Part shown: piece by piece, positions 25,360 to 51,806 of the stretch
Layout of the letters: every line of letters starts with the position of its first letter
Numbering within the stretch: the stretch's first letter is position 1
Assembly: GCA_000350305.1 (NCBI GenBank)
Contig: CP002916.1
Span: 620,001 to 684,000, forward strand
DNA from: Thermoplasmatales archaeon BRNA1
GTDB taxonomy: Archaea > Thermoplasmatota > Thermoplasmata > Methanomassiliicoccales > Methanomethylophilaceae
Reading direction: 5' to 3'
DNA: 64,000 nt
Made by a program: the position numbers and the translations under genes
The notes under the pieces: model-generated
The model's database searches: none
Told to the model about the DNA's origin: nothing
Seen by the model: only the letters and a program-made list of their open reading frames with translations

Positions 25360-26543
25360 ACGCTCATGTCCTCGCGGCGAAGGCGTGACTCGATCATGCC
25401 TTCGAGGTTCTCGGCCAGGTCCCTCGGGGGGATGCCGGTGATCGTGATGTATGTGGCCCTCCCTCCGGCGGGCTCGGGCCTGAGCTCGGTCTTGATGAGG
25501 CTCCTGGCCTCCAGGTCCTTGACGTAGGTGTAGTACTGGGTGTACTTCTTGGCAGGCACCCCGAACTCCTCGCATGCGGCGGCGTAGGTGCCCTGGGCAT
25601 GGAGGGTGGTGACCTCGGGGTTCTTGAAGAGGGAACGTGCGATTGAGAGAAGGACGAGCAGGCGGTTGAGGTCAAGGGACTCCAGTTTGGATTCCGATAC
25701 GTCGGAGTAGACGGATGCCCCCGCGGTGCGGATATGGTCCAGATCGATGTATCTGGCACCTTTGGTCTCTGCGAGGTTCGCCGCCTTCTCGAGGATCTCC
25801 ATGGCGAGCCTGGCATCGCCGTAGGGGGCGGAGATCTTGGCGATCATCCCTATGCCGTCGTCTGTGATGGAACCGGGGCCCAGGGCAAGGTCCGCACGCA
25901 GTTTGACGATGTCTCTGAGCTGGTCCTCGTTGTACTTGTCGAACTTAACCGTCCCGGACCTTCCGAAGGAGGACTGGGAGGCCTGGTCCAGGGCGAGTGC
26001 CTGGAGGGAGTACTGGGAGATGAGTATGAGGGACACGGGGATGCCGGCCGTGGCGTCCTCGGAGAACCTGGTGAGCTGGTAGACAACGTTCTTGGCGGAC
26101 GACCTGAGGATGACGTCCGCCTCGTCGAGGATGATGACCACCGGGGTCTTCTCCGAGTTGATGTGCTGCTTGAGGGAGGAGATCATCTGGTCCACGGAGA
26201 ATCCCCTGTCCGAGAACAGCCTGTCGTAGTGCCTCACAAGCTCCAGCATCACGCCGTACTCGCTGTTCTTCAGGCGGCAGTTCACGTAGATGATATCAAG
26301 GGATTTCCCCGAAACAGAGAACTCCCCGCGCATGTCCGAGCAGAACTTCCTGACGGTGACCGTCTTACCCGTCCCCACGCTCCCGGTCACGTATGCCGTG
26401 CACGGGACGTTGTTGAAGAAGAGGGGCCTGAACGCGTTCTCGAGCTCCGTCATCTGGGCGTCCCTGCAGACGAGCTTGTCGGGGATGTACTCGAAGGCGA
26501 GCTTCTTCCCGTCCCTGATGATCGCGGAGCTTCTCTCGAACAT
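25356..26543 (-). CDS. cdc6: Orc1/Cdc6-family replication initiator
   Basis: 395 residues. AAA+ core: Walker A 'VTGSVGTGKTVTVRKF', Walker B 'VVIILDEADVIL', sensor 1 'SLILISQYS' and sensor 2 'YGDARLAMEILEKAANLAE'. A C-terminal winged helix follows (about 290-395). It binds origin recognition boxes and loads MCM. It sits inside a minus-strand run NIF3-cdc6-ttcA-like, with only 4 nt between NIF3 and cdc6, and I saw no ORB-type repeats or long AT-rich region nearby, so this is probably not next to its origin. Confidence 0.93.
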   Translation of the reverse strand: MFERSSAIIRDGKKLAFEYIPDKLVCRDAQMTELENAFRPLFFNNVPCTAYVTGSVGTGKTVTVRKFCSDMRGEFSVSGKSLDIIYVNCRLKNSEYGVMLELVRHYDRLFSDRGFSVDQMISSLKQHINSEKTPVVIILDEADVILRSSAKNVVYQLTRFSEDATAGIPVSLILISQYSLQALALDQASQSSFGRSGTVKFDKYNEDQLRDIVKLRADLALGPGSITDDGIGMIAKISAPYGDARLAMEILEKAANLAETKGARYIDLDHIRTAGASVYSDVSESKLESLDLNRLLVLLSIARSLFKNPEVTTLHAQGTYAAACEEFGVPAKKYTQYYTYVKDLEARSLIKTELRPEPAGGRATYITITGIPPRDLAENLEGMIESRLRREDMSV

Positions 26544-28629: not shown

Positions 28630-29865
28630 TCAGTATCTGTTATCGAAGATTCTGCTGGTCTTCTTCTCGGATCTCGGGAGGTCACCTATCTTCACGGCCT
28701 TGGGGGAGATGGTCGGTCCGACAATCTCCCTGAACTTCCCGGTCACGGCCTCCTCGAGTGCGGGCCACTTCTCCTTGGGTTCCCCGGTCTCGAAGAACAG
28801 GGTGAGGATGTCCTTCCCTTCCAGATGGTCGATCATTACCTGATACTCCGACGAGGTGCCCGGTACCTTTGAGAGGACCTCCTCGAACTGAGCGGGGAAC
28901 ATGTTCACTCCCTTGACCTTCACCATGTCATCGGTGCGTCCGGTGATGATGTCGATCCTCGGGTACCTGGAACCGCAGGGGCAGGTGCCGGTCATTATGC
29001 GGGTGAGGTCGTGGGTGCGGTACCTGATGAGGGGTGCCCCTTCCTTCACGAGGGTTGTGATGACCAGTTCCCCCACGGTGCCGTCGGGGACGTTCTTCAG
29101 GGTCACCGGGTCGATGACCTCGAAGTAGACGTAGTCGTCCCACATGTGGATGCCGTCCTTGTAGCTGCAGGAGATTCCGATCCCGGGTCCGTAGATCTCG
29201 GTGAGTCCGTAGATGTCGTACAGCTCCACGCCGAGCTCGTCGGCGATCCTCTGCCTCATCCTGTCCCCCCATCTCTCGGAACCGATGATGCCCTTCCTGA
29301 GGCGGATGCTGTCCTTGATCCCGCGGGCGGTTATCTGCTCGGCGAGGAGGAGTGCGTAGGAGGAGGTGGCGCACAGGACGGTGGACTTCAGGTCCTGCAT
29401 CATCTTGAGCTGCTTCTCGGTGTTCCCGGGGCCCATGGGGACCACCATGGCGCCGAGTTTCTCGGCTCCGGCCTGGAAACCGATGCCTGCTGTCCAGAGC
29501 CCGTATCCGGGGGTGATGTGGATGCGGTCGAGGTTGGTGCACCCGGCCATCTTGTAGCAGCGCTCGAACATGGTGGCCCAGTCCTCGACGTCCTTGGCGG
29601 TGTAGGGGATGACGACGGGGGTCCCGGTGGTCCCGGAGGAGGAATGGATCCTGACGATCTGCTCCTCGGGAACGGCCATGAGTCCCAGCGGATACGCCTC
29701 GCGGAGATCCCCTTTGTCGGTGAACGGGAGGGTCTCGAAGTCCTCCTGCGTTCTGATCTTCGACAGGTCGATGTCCTTGTATTTCTCCGCGTAGAAGGGG
29801 CTCTTCTCCTAGATGGTGGAGAGTTCCCTTGCGATGGCCTCCGCCTGGTATCTGCTCATCCTCAT
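28630..29865 (-). CDS. Phenylacetate-CoA ligase-like AMP-forming enzyme with in-frame amber codon
   Basis: From ATG 29865 to TGA 28630-28632 there are 411 codons, with codon 19 a TAG (29811-29809). Both sides of the TAG are family sequence: 'YQAEAIARELSTI' before and 'EKSPFYAEKYKDI', 'LPFTDKGDLREAYP' after. The AMP-binding motif 'SSGTTGTPVVIPYT' and the C-terminal 'GRTDDMVKVKGVNMFP' domain are intact. It activates an aryl acid as its CoA thioester. Without readthrough the first ATG after the TAG (29679) would delete the family-typical N-terminal ~60 residues. Read-through, presumably as pyrrolysine, gives a full-length enzyme. Substrate unknown. Confidence 0.85.
29809..29811 (-). other. In-frame TAG (amber) codon in the PaaK-like gene
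   Basis: The minus-strand context is ..ACC ATC TAG GAG AAG.. and the frame is maintained on both sides. The codon lies just before the conserved 'EKSPFY' segment. No gene in this window ends with TAG. Confidence 0.85.
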
Positions 29866-32977: not shown

Positions 32978-33646
32978 ATGAACGGCATCTCGGACGGACG
33001 CATGGACCCACTCGAATGGGCCAAGTTCGTCATCAGGAGCAGGACCGACGTCGATTATTCCGACGCATTCTCCGTCCTCTCCTCCTATGCCGACAAGGGG
33101 AACGCCGAGGCCCAGTTCTACCTGGGACTGGTCTACGCCCGCGGGCAGGGGATCCCCAGGGACTTCCGCCTCGCACGCGACTGGCTTCAGAGAGCGTCCG
33201 ACCAGGGGAACCTGGGGGCGATGTACTTCCTCGGCAAGATCTACGTCAGGGGATACGGAACCGAGCCCGACCCGGTGAGGGCCGCGGAGCTCTTCACGAA
33301 GCCTTCCGAGGCAGGGGACACCCGTGCCATGTACGCTCTGGCACTTCTTTACATGGACGGCAACGGGGTGGGCAGGGACCTCTCCAAGACCTTCTCCCTC
33401 ATGAGGGATGCAGCAGAGGGAGGTAACATCGAGGCGCAGTTCGTCCTCGGTCAGCTGTACAAGACGGGCGCCGGATGCGAGACCGACTTGAACCAGAGCG
33501 TCAGGTGGCTGTCCTCCGCGGCGGTGAACGGGCATAAGGGCGCCCAGATCCTGCTGGGGGACATGTACACGGCCGGTGACGGGGTCCAGGAGGACCCCGA
33601 CGAGGCCGGCCGCTGGTATAACATGGCCGACGGCCGTTTCATTTGA
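32978..33646 (+). CDS. Sel1-repeat protein (222 aa)
   Basis: Start ATG 32978 follows a TATA-like TATTATTTAAACC box (32951-32963), suggesting a short leader or leaderless mRNA. Five or so Sel1 repeats are visible, e.g. 'LGLVYARGQGIPRDFRLARD' and 'LLYMDGNGVGRDLSKTFSLM'. Codons near 33337 carry an exact copy of the dispersed 10-mer. Its 3' end overlaps the convergent fhs gene by 8 nt. Soluble scaffold; partner unknown. Confidence 0.85.
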   Translation: MNGISDGRMDPLEWAKFVIRSRTDVDYSDAFSVLSSYADKGNAEAQFYLGLVYARGQGIPRDFRLARDWLQRASDQGNLGAMYFLGKIYVRGYGTEPDPVRAAELFTKPSEAGDTRAMYALALLYMDGNGVGRDLSKTFSLMRDAAEGGNIEAQFVLGQLYKTGAGCETDLNQSVRWLSSAAVNGHKGAQILLGDMYTAGDGVQEDPDEAGRWYNMADGRFI

Positions 33647-35321
33647 GTCCGATGATCTTCTTGCCGTCCTCGGACAGGTCAATCCTCAGCGCCGCGGGCT
33701 CCTTGGAGAGACCCGGCATCAGCATGATGTTGCCGCAGACCGGGACGACGAATCCCGCTCCCGCGGAGAGGAGGACCTCCCTGACGCTGAGGGTCCAGCC
33801 GATGGGCGCTCCCTTCAGGTCCGGGTTGTCGGAGATCGAGTACTGAGTCTTGGCGATGCAGATCGGGAGCTTTCCGTAACCCTGGTCGTTGATCGCCTGT
33901 ATCTGCTTCTCGGCGAGCTTGGAGAACCTCACGCCGTCCGCTCCGTAGATCTTCGTGGCGACGGTCTCGATCTTCTCCTGGATGGAGAGCTCGTCGGGAT
34001 AGGAGAACTTGAACTCGGGTTTGGTGGAACCGAGGACCTCGACGACCTTCTCGGCGAGTTCCTTTGCACCCTTCCCTCCCTCGAGGTATCCGTCGGACAT
34101 GACGCACTCCGCGCCGATTTCCCTGCAGTGGTCCCTTATGAGCTTGATGTCGGACTCGGAATCGGTGTAGAAGTGGTTGATGGAGACGATGACGGGGACC
34201 CCGTAGGACTTCATGTTCTCAACGTGCTTGTCGAGGTTGGCGAATCCCCTCTGGAGGGCCGCGGTGGTGAAGGACTCCGGATCCTTCACGTCGGCCCCGC
34301 CGTGCATCATGAGGGCACGGACGGTGGCGACGATGACAACCGCGCTGGGGCGGATGCCGGACTGGCGGGCGACGATGTCCATGAACTTCTGCCCTCCGAG
34401 ATCGGCGGCGAATCCCCCCTCGGTGACCGCGATGTCCCCGAAGGCCATGGCGGCCTTGGTGGCGATGACGGAGTTGTTCCCGTGGGCGATGTTGGCGAAC
34501 GGGAACCCGTGGACGAAGACGGGCTGGCCCTCGAGGGTCTGGACGAGGTTGGGCATGAGCGCCTCCCTGAGGAGGACCATCATGGAACCGACGCATCCCA
34601 GCTGGCCGGCGGTCACGGGCTTGTTGTCGAAGGTGTAAGCGACGACGATCCTCTCGAGCCTCTCCCTCAGGTCCTTGTACGACACGGCGAGGGCGAGGAT
34701 GGCGGAGATCTCGGAGGCGGAGGTGATGAGGAAACCGCTCTCGTGGGTGACCCCTCCGCTTACCTTTGTGTCGCCGATTCCGACGACGATGCGCCTGAGC
34801 TCCCTCATGTTCATGTCGACGGTCTTCTTCCACACGATGCGGGAGGGGTCGATGTTCAGGGGGTTGTCCCTGACGAGGTTGTTCTCCAGGACCGCGGACA
34901 GGAGGTTGTGGGCGGATGCGACGGCGTGGATGTCGCCGGTGAATTCGAGGTCGATCTTCCACATGGGGTAGATCTGGGCGTGGCCCCCTCCGGTGGCTCC
35001 TCCCTTGATCCCGAAGGTGGGACCGATGGAGGGCTCGCGGAGGGCCCCGACGACGTTCTTGCCGAGGGCGGCGAGGCCCTGGATGAGACTGATGGTGGTG
35101 ACGGTCTTCCCCTCCCCGGCCTGGGTGGGGGTGACCGCGGTGACGAGGACGAGCTTGCCCTGTCCCTTCTTGGCCTCTGCCTTCTCGAGGACGTCCAGGG
35201 GGACCTTGGCGATGTATTTGCCGAACTGCTCGATGTCGTCTGCATCGAGGCCGATGGTTTTGGCGATCTCGGTGATCTTCTTGACCTTCGCGTTCTCCGC
35301 GATTTCGATGTCGGTCATCAT
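33639..35321 (-). CDS. fhs: Formate-tetrahydrofolate ligase
   Basis: 560 residues, the normal family length. The ATP-binding P-loop is 'TPTQAGEGKTVTTISLIQGL', and 'REPSIGPTFGIKGGATGGGH' is the family signature. It forms 10-formyl-THF from formate and ATP. With glyA this marks a folate-linked C1 pool in a methanogen, consistent with Methanomassiliicoccales. ATG 35321 is used (a second ATG follows directly). It overlaps the convergent Sel1 gene by 8 nt. Confidence 0.95.
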   Translation of the reverse strand: MMTDIEIAENAKVKKITEIAKTIGLDADDIEQFGKYIAKVPLDVLEKAEAKKGQGKLVLVTAVTPTQAGEGKTVTTISLIQGLAALGKNVVGALREPSIGPTFGIKGGATGGGHAQIYPMWKIDLEFTGDIHAVASAHNLLSAVLENNLVRDNPLNIDPSRIVWKKTVDMNMRELRRIVVGIGDTKVSGGVTHESGFLITSASEISAILALAVSYKDLRERLERIVVAYTFDNKPVTAGQLGCVGSMMVLLREALMPNLVQTLEGQPVFVHGFPFANIAHGNNSVIATKAAMAFGDIAVTEGGFAADLGGQKFMDIVARQSGIRPSAVVIVATVRALMMHGGADVKDPESFTTAALQRGFANLDKHVENMKSYGVPVIVSINHFYTDSESDIKLIRDHCREIGAECVMSDGYLEGGKGAKELAEKVVEVLGSTKPEFKFSYPDELSIQEKIETVATKIYGADGVRFSKLAEKQIQAINDQGYGKLPICIAKTQYSISDNPDLKGAPIGWTLSVREVLLSAGAGFVVPVCGNIMLMPGLSKEPAALRIDLSEDGKKIIGLK

Positions 35322-35428: not shown

Positions 35429-36055
35429 ATGCCGTTCATGAACTACATCTTCGACTTCGGGAACACCATCGCCGACCTTAGACGCACGTACGGGATGACT
35501 TATTCCTAGGTGTTCAAGCAGTTCGGGATGGCATACGATCCCAACATGGACTACGAGTATGCGGAGATGCCCCTGGACCAGCTGTTCTCCCAGCACCACA
35601 AGGGCTGCACCTGCGAATACAGGGACTTCGTCACCATGACCATAGCGGCCTACGAGAGGAACATGAAGTCGGAAGCGAACATATTCCCGGACGTGCCCCT
35701 AACCCTGGGGATCCTCCGCAGCAACAACCGTAGGCTCGGCATCGTGTCGAGGTCCTACGAGCACCACATCCGCATGATTCTCTCGGACTTCTCCATGGAG
35801 GATGCCTTCGATTCCATAGTGGGTCTGGAGAGGGCCGTCCTCCAGAGACCGAACCCTTACACCGTCGATCTGTGCATGAGGGAGATGGGGGCCGACAGGA
35901 ACAACACCCTGCTCGTGAGCTCGAATCCCCTGGACATCGAGACCGGCCACAACGCGGGGGTAAAGACCGCCCTCCTCGACAGGTCGGGACACACCGGACC
36001 CGACTGCGGGCCCACCTATTACATCAGCAGCTTCGATGAGATCCTGAAGCTGTGA
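35429..36055 (+). CDS. HAD-superfamily phosphatase with in-frame amber codon
   Basis: From ATG 35429, codon 27 is TAG (35507-35509), and the frame continues to TGA at 36053 (208 codons). The nucleophile motif 'YIFDFGNTIAD' lies before the TAG, with the second Asp of DxDxT replaced by Gly-Asn (DFGNT). The cap and remaining HAD motifs ('LGIVSRSYEHH', 'QRPNPYTVDLCMREM', 'TLLVSSNPLDIETGHNAGVK') lie after it. Stopping at the TAG would leave a 26-residue peptide, and starting after it would lose the nucleophile, so read-through is needed for a working enzyme. The acid/base Asp loss leaves catalytic competence uncertain. It ends 1 nt before a convergent Sel1 gene. Confidence 0.8.
35507..35509 (+). 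other. In-frame TAG (amber) codon in the HAD gene
   Basis: The context is ..TAT TCC TAG GTG TTC AAG.. The frame encodes HAD sequence on both sides: 'FDFGNT' upstream and 'VFKQFGM' downstream. This is the second such case in the window. Confidence 0.85.
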
Positions 36056-39862: not shown

Positions 39863-41890
39863 ATGAAGGTGGGTATAGACCTAGGTACGACCTACTCGGT
39901 GGTCGCCAGATACAACCCAGCAACCTCCTCGGCGGACATCATTCCGAACGGCGAGGGGAAGGACCTCACGCCGTCGGTCATATGTTTCATGGACGGGGAC
40001 GTCCTCATCGGAGACGATGCCAAACGCATGCAGATGGGAGGGGCGGGGGAGATCGCCTCCACCTTCAAGCGCGGCATCGGGAACCCCAACTTCTTCATCG
40101 ACTGCAATTCCGAACACTACAGCGCCGAGGACCTCTCGGCCATCATGTACCGCCACCTCGCCGAATCCGCGGAGGAGTCCGCCGGGGAGAAGATCGACGG
40201 TGCGATCATCACGGTCCCCGCCTACTTCAACGACATCCAGAGGAAGGCGACCATCAGCGCCGCGCAGACCGCGGGCATCAAGGTCCTGAAGATCATGAAC
40301 GAGCCCACCGCGGCCGCCATCTACTACGGCTACAGGCACTCGGCGGACAAGACCCTCATGGTGTACGACCTCGGGGGCGGGACGTTCGACGTCACCATCG
40401 TCAAGGTCACCGAGGGGAGGATAGACGTCCTCGGAACCGCAGGGAACCACATCCTCGGCGGGAAGGACTGGGACGAGGTGCTCATGAACATGGTCTGCGA
40501 CAGGTTCGCCGACGAGTTCGGCGCGGATCCCCGCAACGACACCGTCGCACGCGAGGAGATCCTCGCCCAGTGCGAATCGTTCAAGAAACTGCTCTCCACG
40601 TCCGGCGTCATCCGCATCCCGGTGTCCTTCGCCGGGAACGACGGGGAGTATTCCGTCACCCGGGAGGAGTACGAGGCGAAGACCGCCTACCTCATCACCG
40701 CCACCGATGCCGTGGTCGATTCCGTCCTGGATGACCTGCACCTCGCCCCCGCCGCCGTGGACGAGGTCCTCCTAGTTGGCGGTTCCACCAGGATGCCCCA
40801 GGTGGAGCACCACCTGAGGAGGCAGGGATTCACCAACATCAAATCGCACAGGGACACCGACCTTGCCGTGGCGAAGGGCGCGGCGCTTTCCGCCGAGTTG
40901 TTCAGCGGTTCCGCCACGGGGCTCAGGGACATCGTCGTGAACGACGTCACCTCCCACAGCCTCGGCATGCTCTCCATCGGCCCGGACCACCGCAGCTACG
41001 TCAACGAGATCATGATCGAGAGGAACTCCCCGGTCCCGGTGTCGAAGACCAAGGCCTACCGCATCGAGGAGGACAACCTCACCGACATCATCGAGGTGTT
41101 CATCCTACAGGGGGAGAGCACGGTCCCCGCCGACTGCACGGTCATCGGCAAGGAGGTCATCACCGGCTTCGAGAACAACGGCCGCGGCCTCAACATCAGC
41201 ATCACATTCTCGTACGACGAGAACGGCGTCGTGCACGTCTCCGCCCGCAACGGGAACCAGGACCTCTCCATCATCACCGAGTCCCTGCCCTCCGACATGG
41301 GGTGGATGGCCAAGACCCCCTCTGAGAGGAAGACCAACGACAGGGTCGCCAAGAACATCGCCATCTGCGTGGACCTCTCCCGCAGCATGGGGGAGAACCT
41401 GGAGGGCGTCAAGGACGCCATCCGCAACTTCGTCCTCAGCCTCGCCGGGGACTTCACCAAATTCGCGCTCATAGGCTTCGGGGACCGCACCCACGTCATC
41501 AGCCCCCTCTCGTCCGACCCCGACGACATCCGCAACGCGGTCGAGAGGCTGAAGCTCAACCGCATGGGGAGGGGGACGGACGCCAACCCCGTCGACACCA
41601 TCAGGGAGATCCTGTCCGGGGAGAAGGGCGCCAGGGTCGGCGTCATCCTCACAGACGGTATCTGGGGGAGCCGCGACGAGGCGGTGGAATCCGCACGCGA
41701 GTGCAGGGCGGAGAAGATCAACCTCGTGGCCGTGTGGTTCGGCGACGCCGACTACTCCTTCCTGAAACAGATAGCGACCATCGAGGAGAATGCGATGTAC
41801 ACCACCCTCAGCAACCTCGGGAAGACCGTAAGCACCATAGCCACGGCCATACGCGACACCCCCGACGGTCTCATGGAGAGATTCAGATGA
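39863..41890 (+). CDS. Hsp70-family protein fused to a C-terminal VWA domain
   Basis: 675 residues. The ATPase half has phosphate-1 'GIDLGTTYSVVARY', phosphate-2 'YDLGGGTFDVTIVKV' and adenosine motif 'LLVGGSTRMPQVE'. A beta-sandwich substrate-binding region follows (about 370-485), but the helical lid is replaced from about residue 495 by a von Willebrand A domain. That domain has a complete MIDAS: 'DLSRSMG' (DxSxS), 'GRGTDANP' and 'LTDGIWG'. Hsp70 gives ATP-driven client binding and VWA gives metal-dependent protein docking. First gene of a five-gene operon; its stop overlaps the next start (ATGA). Client unknown. Confidence 0.92.
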   Translation: MKVGIDLGTTYSVVARYNPATSSADIIPNGEGKDLTPSVICFMDGDVLIGDDAKRMQMGGAGEIASTFKRGIGNPNFFIDCNSEHYSAEDLSAIMYRHLAESAEESAGEKIDGAIITVPAYFNDIQRKATISAAQTAGIKVLKIMNEPTAAAIYYGYRHSADKTLMVYDLGGGTFDVTIVKVTEGRIDVLGTAGNHILGGKDWDEVLMNMVCDRFADEFGADPRNDTVAREEILAQCESFKKLLSTSGVIRIPVSFAGNDGEYSVTREEYEAKTAYLITATDAVVDSVLDDLHLAPAAVDEVLLVGGSTRMPQVEHHLRRQGFTNIKSHRDTDLAVAKGAALSAELFSGSATGLRDIVVNDVTSHSLGMLSIGPDHRSYVNEIMIERNSPVPVSKTKAYRIEEDNLTDIIEVFILQGESTVPADCTVIGKEVITGFENNGRGLNISITFSYDENGVVHVSARNGNQDLSIITESLPSDMGWMAKTPSERKTNDRVAKNIAICVDLSRSMGENLEGVKDAIRNFVLSLAGDFTKFALIGFGDRTHVISPLSSDPDDIRNAVERLKLNRMGRGTDANPVDTIREILSGEKGARVGVILTDGIWGSRDEAVESARECRAEKINLVAVWFGDADYSFLKQIATIEENAMYTTLSNLGKTVSTIATAIRDTPDGLMERFR

Positions 41891-51683: not shown

Positions 51684-51806
51684 ATTGGACGGCCACAGCA
51701 GTGGGGTTCACCCGGTCCCATCTCGAACCCGGCAGTTAAGCCCACTCACGTAGGTGTCGCGTACTGTGTTGCGCAAGTGCACGGGAAAGCACCCACGCTG
51801 TCCACT
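51684..51806 (+). rRNA. 5S ribosomal RNA
   Basis: The sequence contains the conserved loop A/B/C core CCGGTCCCATCTCGAACC followed by CGGCAGTTAAGCCC. Its 5' TGGACGGC pairs with 3' GCTGTCCA (51797-51804) as helix I. Length of about 123 nt fits archaeal 5S. A TATA box precedes it and a CTTTTC stretch follows at the 3' end. It stands alone with no 16S or 23S nearby, as in Thermoplasmatota with unlinked rRNA genes. End positions are approximate to a few nucleotides. Confidence 0.93.

Follow-up and report, generated by a model that had tools for sequence, protein, structure and literature searches.

An in-frame TAG, probably read as pyrrolysine, in the fhs-linked HAD-family gene of Thermoplasmatales archaeon BRNA1

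A HAD-family gene of Thermoplasmatales archaeon BRNA1 contains an in-frame TAG at codon 27, which very probably works as a sense codon read as pyrrolysine, the 22nd amino acid, at a variable position of a 208-residue protein with a HAD fold. We found the gene in a window of 64,000 nucleotides (the whole stretch of DNA that was analysed), in a genome that codes for a complete pyl set and has internal TAGs in many other conserved genes, and the gene itself is under constraint. Read-through as such is ordinary for this archaeal group, the less expected part being the apparent drift of the gene towards a pseudoenzyme.

The HAD-family gene and its in-frame TAG

35429..36055, + strand: HAD-family gene, 208 codons with TAG as sense, from the ATG at 35429 to the TGA at 36053-36055
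35507..35509, + strand: in-frame TAG, codon 27, probably pyrrolysine; the column varies, with Ala or Lys frequent among relatives

When the TAG is translated, the frame is open from its ATG over 208 amino acids, with no second lesion. The Pfam profile HAD_2 (PF13419) covers residues 6-182, the TAG included (E 3e-23, 83 bits, cut-off 23.8), and this whole-domain sequence match places the protein in the HAD superfamily; with the first 33 residues removed, leaving only the part downstream of the TAG, the profile is matched only from its position 40 onwards. Residues 1-26 can be aligned with relatives, so homology extends in frame to either side of the TAG. Together with the profile match across the TAG, this alignment shows that the frame is not a chance ORF, and the amber codon reported by the first-pass annotation is borne out. 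Residue 27 falls inside a predicted helix (18-32) in the cap region, in a structure model of poor quality (mean pLDDT 57). RNA structure 3' of the TAG is not above chance (z 0.04), and no PYLIS match was found in the 64,000-nt window.

Pyrrolysine machinery and TAG usage

The BRNA1 genome is a single contig of 1,461,105 bases, with ~58.5% GC in our sample, one cdc6 gene near 1 kb and another near 645 kb; in the published description the size is 1.46 Mb, GC is 58%, and 645 kb separate the cdc6 genes (PMC5011839). The pyl set is complete, with tRNA-Pyl(CUA), PylS, PylB, PylC, and PylD. The tRNA-Pyl gene (anticodon CTA), missed by ARAGORN and recovered by a pattern search, lies immediately 5' of pylS, while PylC and PylD are coded 3' of pylS and PylB separately, at 442 kb. 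PylS is of the C-terminal domain type; the N-terminal domain was looked for and not found, an absence that is expected in this order. Two TAG-bearing mtmB genes are located 5' of pylT, with TAG-bearing mtbB and mttB genes within ~10 kb, and there are PYLIS-family matches at the methyltransferases, those at mtmB under the curated threshold.

TAG usage was analysed with a simple codon-usage gene finder in a sample of the window plus 21 further stretches (478 kb, 33% of the genome). Among 459 gene models, 405 end in TGA, 50 in TAA, and 4 in TAG (0.9%), and TAG is almost free of a stop role in this genome. Internal TAGs occur in 17 of the 459 models, or about 16 after setting aside a window model of replication factor C, whose TAGs are due to a doubtful start and are avoided by the ATG at 26290. 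The four methylamine methyltransferases (mtmB twice, mtbB, mttB), which are classical pyrrolysine proteins, serve as positive controls. In these four and in the HAD gene the TAG falls within a single Pfam domain, as it also does in genes for a radical SAM protein, a GNAT acetyltransferase, a histidine phosphatase, and a 4HBT thioesterase. In the sole copy of carA (carbamoyl-phosphate synthase small chain; L043:849-1934, - strand), codon 143 is an in-frame TAG located between the two domains. Internal TAGs are followed by G in 10 of 18 cases against an expected 38%, with no clear preference. Two long TAG-containing frames, L040:10757-13714 (+) and L047:12127-13545 (+), are uncertain in start or decoding, one having no Pfam match and one having three TAGs before a CobW domain.

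Reading TAA or TGA as sense mostly fuses tandem genes, and the control was judged by the spanning of single domains: none of 10 TAA cases had a domain spanning the TAA, the domains found being tandem-gene-like or run-on ends. This asymmetry between TAG and TAA argues against both sequencing error and a general decay of genes. The first-pass annotation had proposed that read-through is normal in this organism, which is strongly supported by the full pyl cassette, the scarce TAG stops and the many conserved genes interrupted by TAG. It had also pointed to a second case within 6 kb, which exists in the window, its TAG being 5.7 kb from that of the HAD gene:

28630..29865, - strand: PaaK-like CoA ligase, TAG at codon 19 (29811-29809)

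Within the genus, the likely orthologues of this CoA ligase, at 64-85% identity, are free of internal stops, and Lys occupies the codon-19 position in all four aligned relatives.

Two other features of the window were recorded. A gene at 39863-41890 (+) codes for a DnaK-like Hsp70 protein carrying a von Willebrand A domain as a C-terminal fusion, and relatives of it occur in the family. The only rRNA match in the window is a 5S rRNA gene at 51685-51806 (+); scattered rRNA genes are known in this order.

Catalytic motifs and the fhs-linked family

35453..35467, + strand: motif I, Asp9-Phe-Gly-Asn-Thr13 (DFGNT), nucleophile Asp present, Gly at the second Asp
35747..35749, + strand: motif II, Ser107
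35846..35848, + strand: motif III, Arg140, where Lys is usual
35918..35935, + strand: motif IV region, SSNPLD (164-169), where GDxxxD is expected
33639..35321, - strand: fhs, coding for formate-tetrahydrofolate ligase; its divergent placement next to the HAD gene is conserved

The motifs are placed as first described, with Asp9 located 5' of the TAG and Ser107, Arg140, and motif IV 3' of it. The assignment as a HAD phosphatase appears weak. Motif I (DFGNT) lacks the second of the two aspartates of DxDx[T/V], and motif IV (SSNPLD) lacks the first Asp of the acidic pair in GDxxxD; these two phosphatase-defining aspartates are absent from the full-length protein and from its nearest orthologues. 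The earlier argument that neither fragment alone could be an enzyme accordingly carries little, as the full-length protein is already without them. Phosphatase activity, with or without read-through, seems unlikely because the catalytic residues are lost in this gene and in the genus. In an alignment with 1jud, the protein does contain the SSNxxD motif IV of L-2-haloacid dehalogenases (HAD type II), with a score of 43 bits against the family cut-off of 125 (TIGR01428). We think that the protein is a HAD homolog that lost phosphatase chemistry, a pseudoenzyme that would act through its conserved cap; a dehalogenase-like enzyme, for which the SSNxxD match to 1jud is the sole argument, would be less likely.

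Wherever the examined stretch of a related locus includes fhs (18 loci), the HAD gene is divergent to it, mostly directly adjoining it; G007 has a second HAD gene between the two. Outside the genus, the HAD copies compared have the intact catalytic set (D, D, T, S/T, K, GDxxxD). Within it (35429-36055 plus loci L007-L010, L019, L020, L023, and L029-L032), only the G007 copy is catalytically intact. The BRNA1 gene, G005, and G001 have in common DFG(N/S)T, Arg140, and SSxPxD, the G011 copy has also lost the nucleophile, and the remaining genus copies have lost more residues and end early, at 173-188 residues. The best conserved part of these proteins is the cap segment PLDxLF..GCTCxxRDF, and mean pairwise identity is 0.52 over residues 40-75 versus 0.31 over residues 81-208. 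These alignments suggest that the fhs-linked HAD gene is likely undergoing pseudoenzyme drift across the genus, with the cap conserved. A narrow literature search returned no description of such a genus-wide catalytic loss with a kept cap, and the repeated loss beside fhs is a small question in its own right.

Conservation, constraint, and alternative explanations

None of the 28 related genes having the codon-27 column has a TAG there. Conservation of the TAG in sister genomes had been proposed as a check, and the codon turned out to be private to BRNA1; its absence from other species counts against decoding as pyrrolysine, as does the catalytic loss in relatives of the genus, which may mean that the HAD gene is only weakly constrained.

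Compared with its nearest relative, G005 (~65% identity), the gene has a dN/dS of ~0.23 in the stretch before the TAG, which has only 26 codons, ~0.30 after it, and about 0.3 overall; with dS near 1 these ratios are rough, and they would not yet reveal a nonsense mutation of recent date. Counts of unique amino acid changes are even with two of the outgroups (15 to 17 and 14 to 16), the third gives 24 to 12, with more in the BRNA1 gene, and there is no consistent acceleration over the three. The gene has no sign of decay since the split from its nearest relative, and purifying selection is seen in that pair. Elsewhere, the G003 match contains one TGA and one TAG, and the G013 copy is broken over two frames. 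The first-pass annotation had held that decay in all relatives would refute read-through: the catalytic residues do decay across the genus, but most frames are open and the nearest pair is under purifying selection.

A recent pseudogene, in which the TAG terminates and an already non-catalytic gene is being lost, would fit the genus-wide catalytic loss, the species-private TAG, and the matches in G003 and G013. We consider it improbable, as TAG would be a poor stop when tRNA-Pyl is in the cell, the 208 codons have no other lesion, the comparison with G005 shows purifying selection both before and after the TAG, and the internal-TAG pattern is common to conserved genes such as carA. A partial stop, with read-through tracking the supply of pyrrolysine and the amount of HAD protein following methylamine availability, seems to us equally improbable. 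TAG decoding does depend on pyrrolysine, and a few TAG stops persist (4 of 459), but with TAGs in general-metabolism genes such as carA a tight dependence would be costly, and the variable position 27, the chance-level RNA structure, and the lack of a PYLIS match in the window also argue against such a control. The least credible alternative is an error in the finished single genome at a true sense codon: one assembly of the species was considered, but random errors would hit TAG and TAA alike, and domains are interrupted by TAG and not in the ten TAA cases.

If the TAG is a sense codon, as we prefer, charged tRNA-Pyl(CUA) would decode it; we infer both the insertion of pyrrolysine and its efficiency. 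The pyrrolysine would sit at residue 27, a variable position in the predicted cap helix, and a dedicated insertion element is seemingly unneeded, TAG being almost free of a stop role. The codon probably arose by mutation in the BRNA1 lineage, presumably a neutral one, and may be tolerated because TAG is decoded routinely. A more speculative and rather doubtful extension is that the genus protein has passed from a phosphatase to a non-catalytic, cap-driven protein that retains a role close to one-carbon metabolism, such as partnering or regulating formate-tetrahydrofolate ligase, and that its production in BRNA1 is also pyrrolysine dependent.

Comparison with known systems

M. alvus, ISO4-H5, and ISO4-G1 are, like BRNA1, Methanomassiliicoccales with pyl machinery, rare TAG stops, and lineage-specific TAGs in ordinary genes. 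For M. alvus, PMC4153887 gives 16 extra predicted pyrrolysine proteins other than methyltransferases and 1.6% TAG stops, and 46 and 25 pyrrolysine genes in all are given for ISO4-H5 (PMC5011839) and ISO4-G1 (PMC4824259), respectively. The present case differs from the published ones in genome and in gene, and no HAD protein was seen in the M. alvus table of extra pyrrolysine proteins as excerpted (PMC4153887). Pyrrolysine decoding as a cause is already published for this order, and the BRNA1 HAD gene is one more example. In a 2025 study, archaea reportedly read all TAG codons as pyrrolysine. The HAD gene, the CoA ligase, and the sole carA copy, all ordinary non-methylamine genes, extend the list of likely pyrrolysine proteins in a rumen methanogen. 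They support the idea that this lineage uses TAG almost like any other sense codon and that annotation under the standard code truncates genes of this sort.

MtmB, MtbB, and MttB share the genome and the tRNA for TAG with the HAD gene, but their pyrrolysine is catalytic and conserved, with PYLIS-family matches, whereas the HAD residue is variable and species private. By sequence, the HAD protein shares its fold family with HAD phosphatases (phosphoglycolate phosphatase, 2nyv) and L-2-haloacid dehalogenase (1jud); it keeps Asp9, Thr13, Ser107, and Asp169, and its SSN..D resembles motif IV of 1jud. In contrast to these families, it has neither the second Asp in motif I nor the GD in motif IV, has Arg140 for Lys, and scores far under the curated cut-offs of both the phosphoglycolate phosphatase and the haloacid dehalogenase families.
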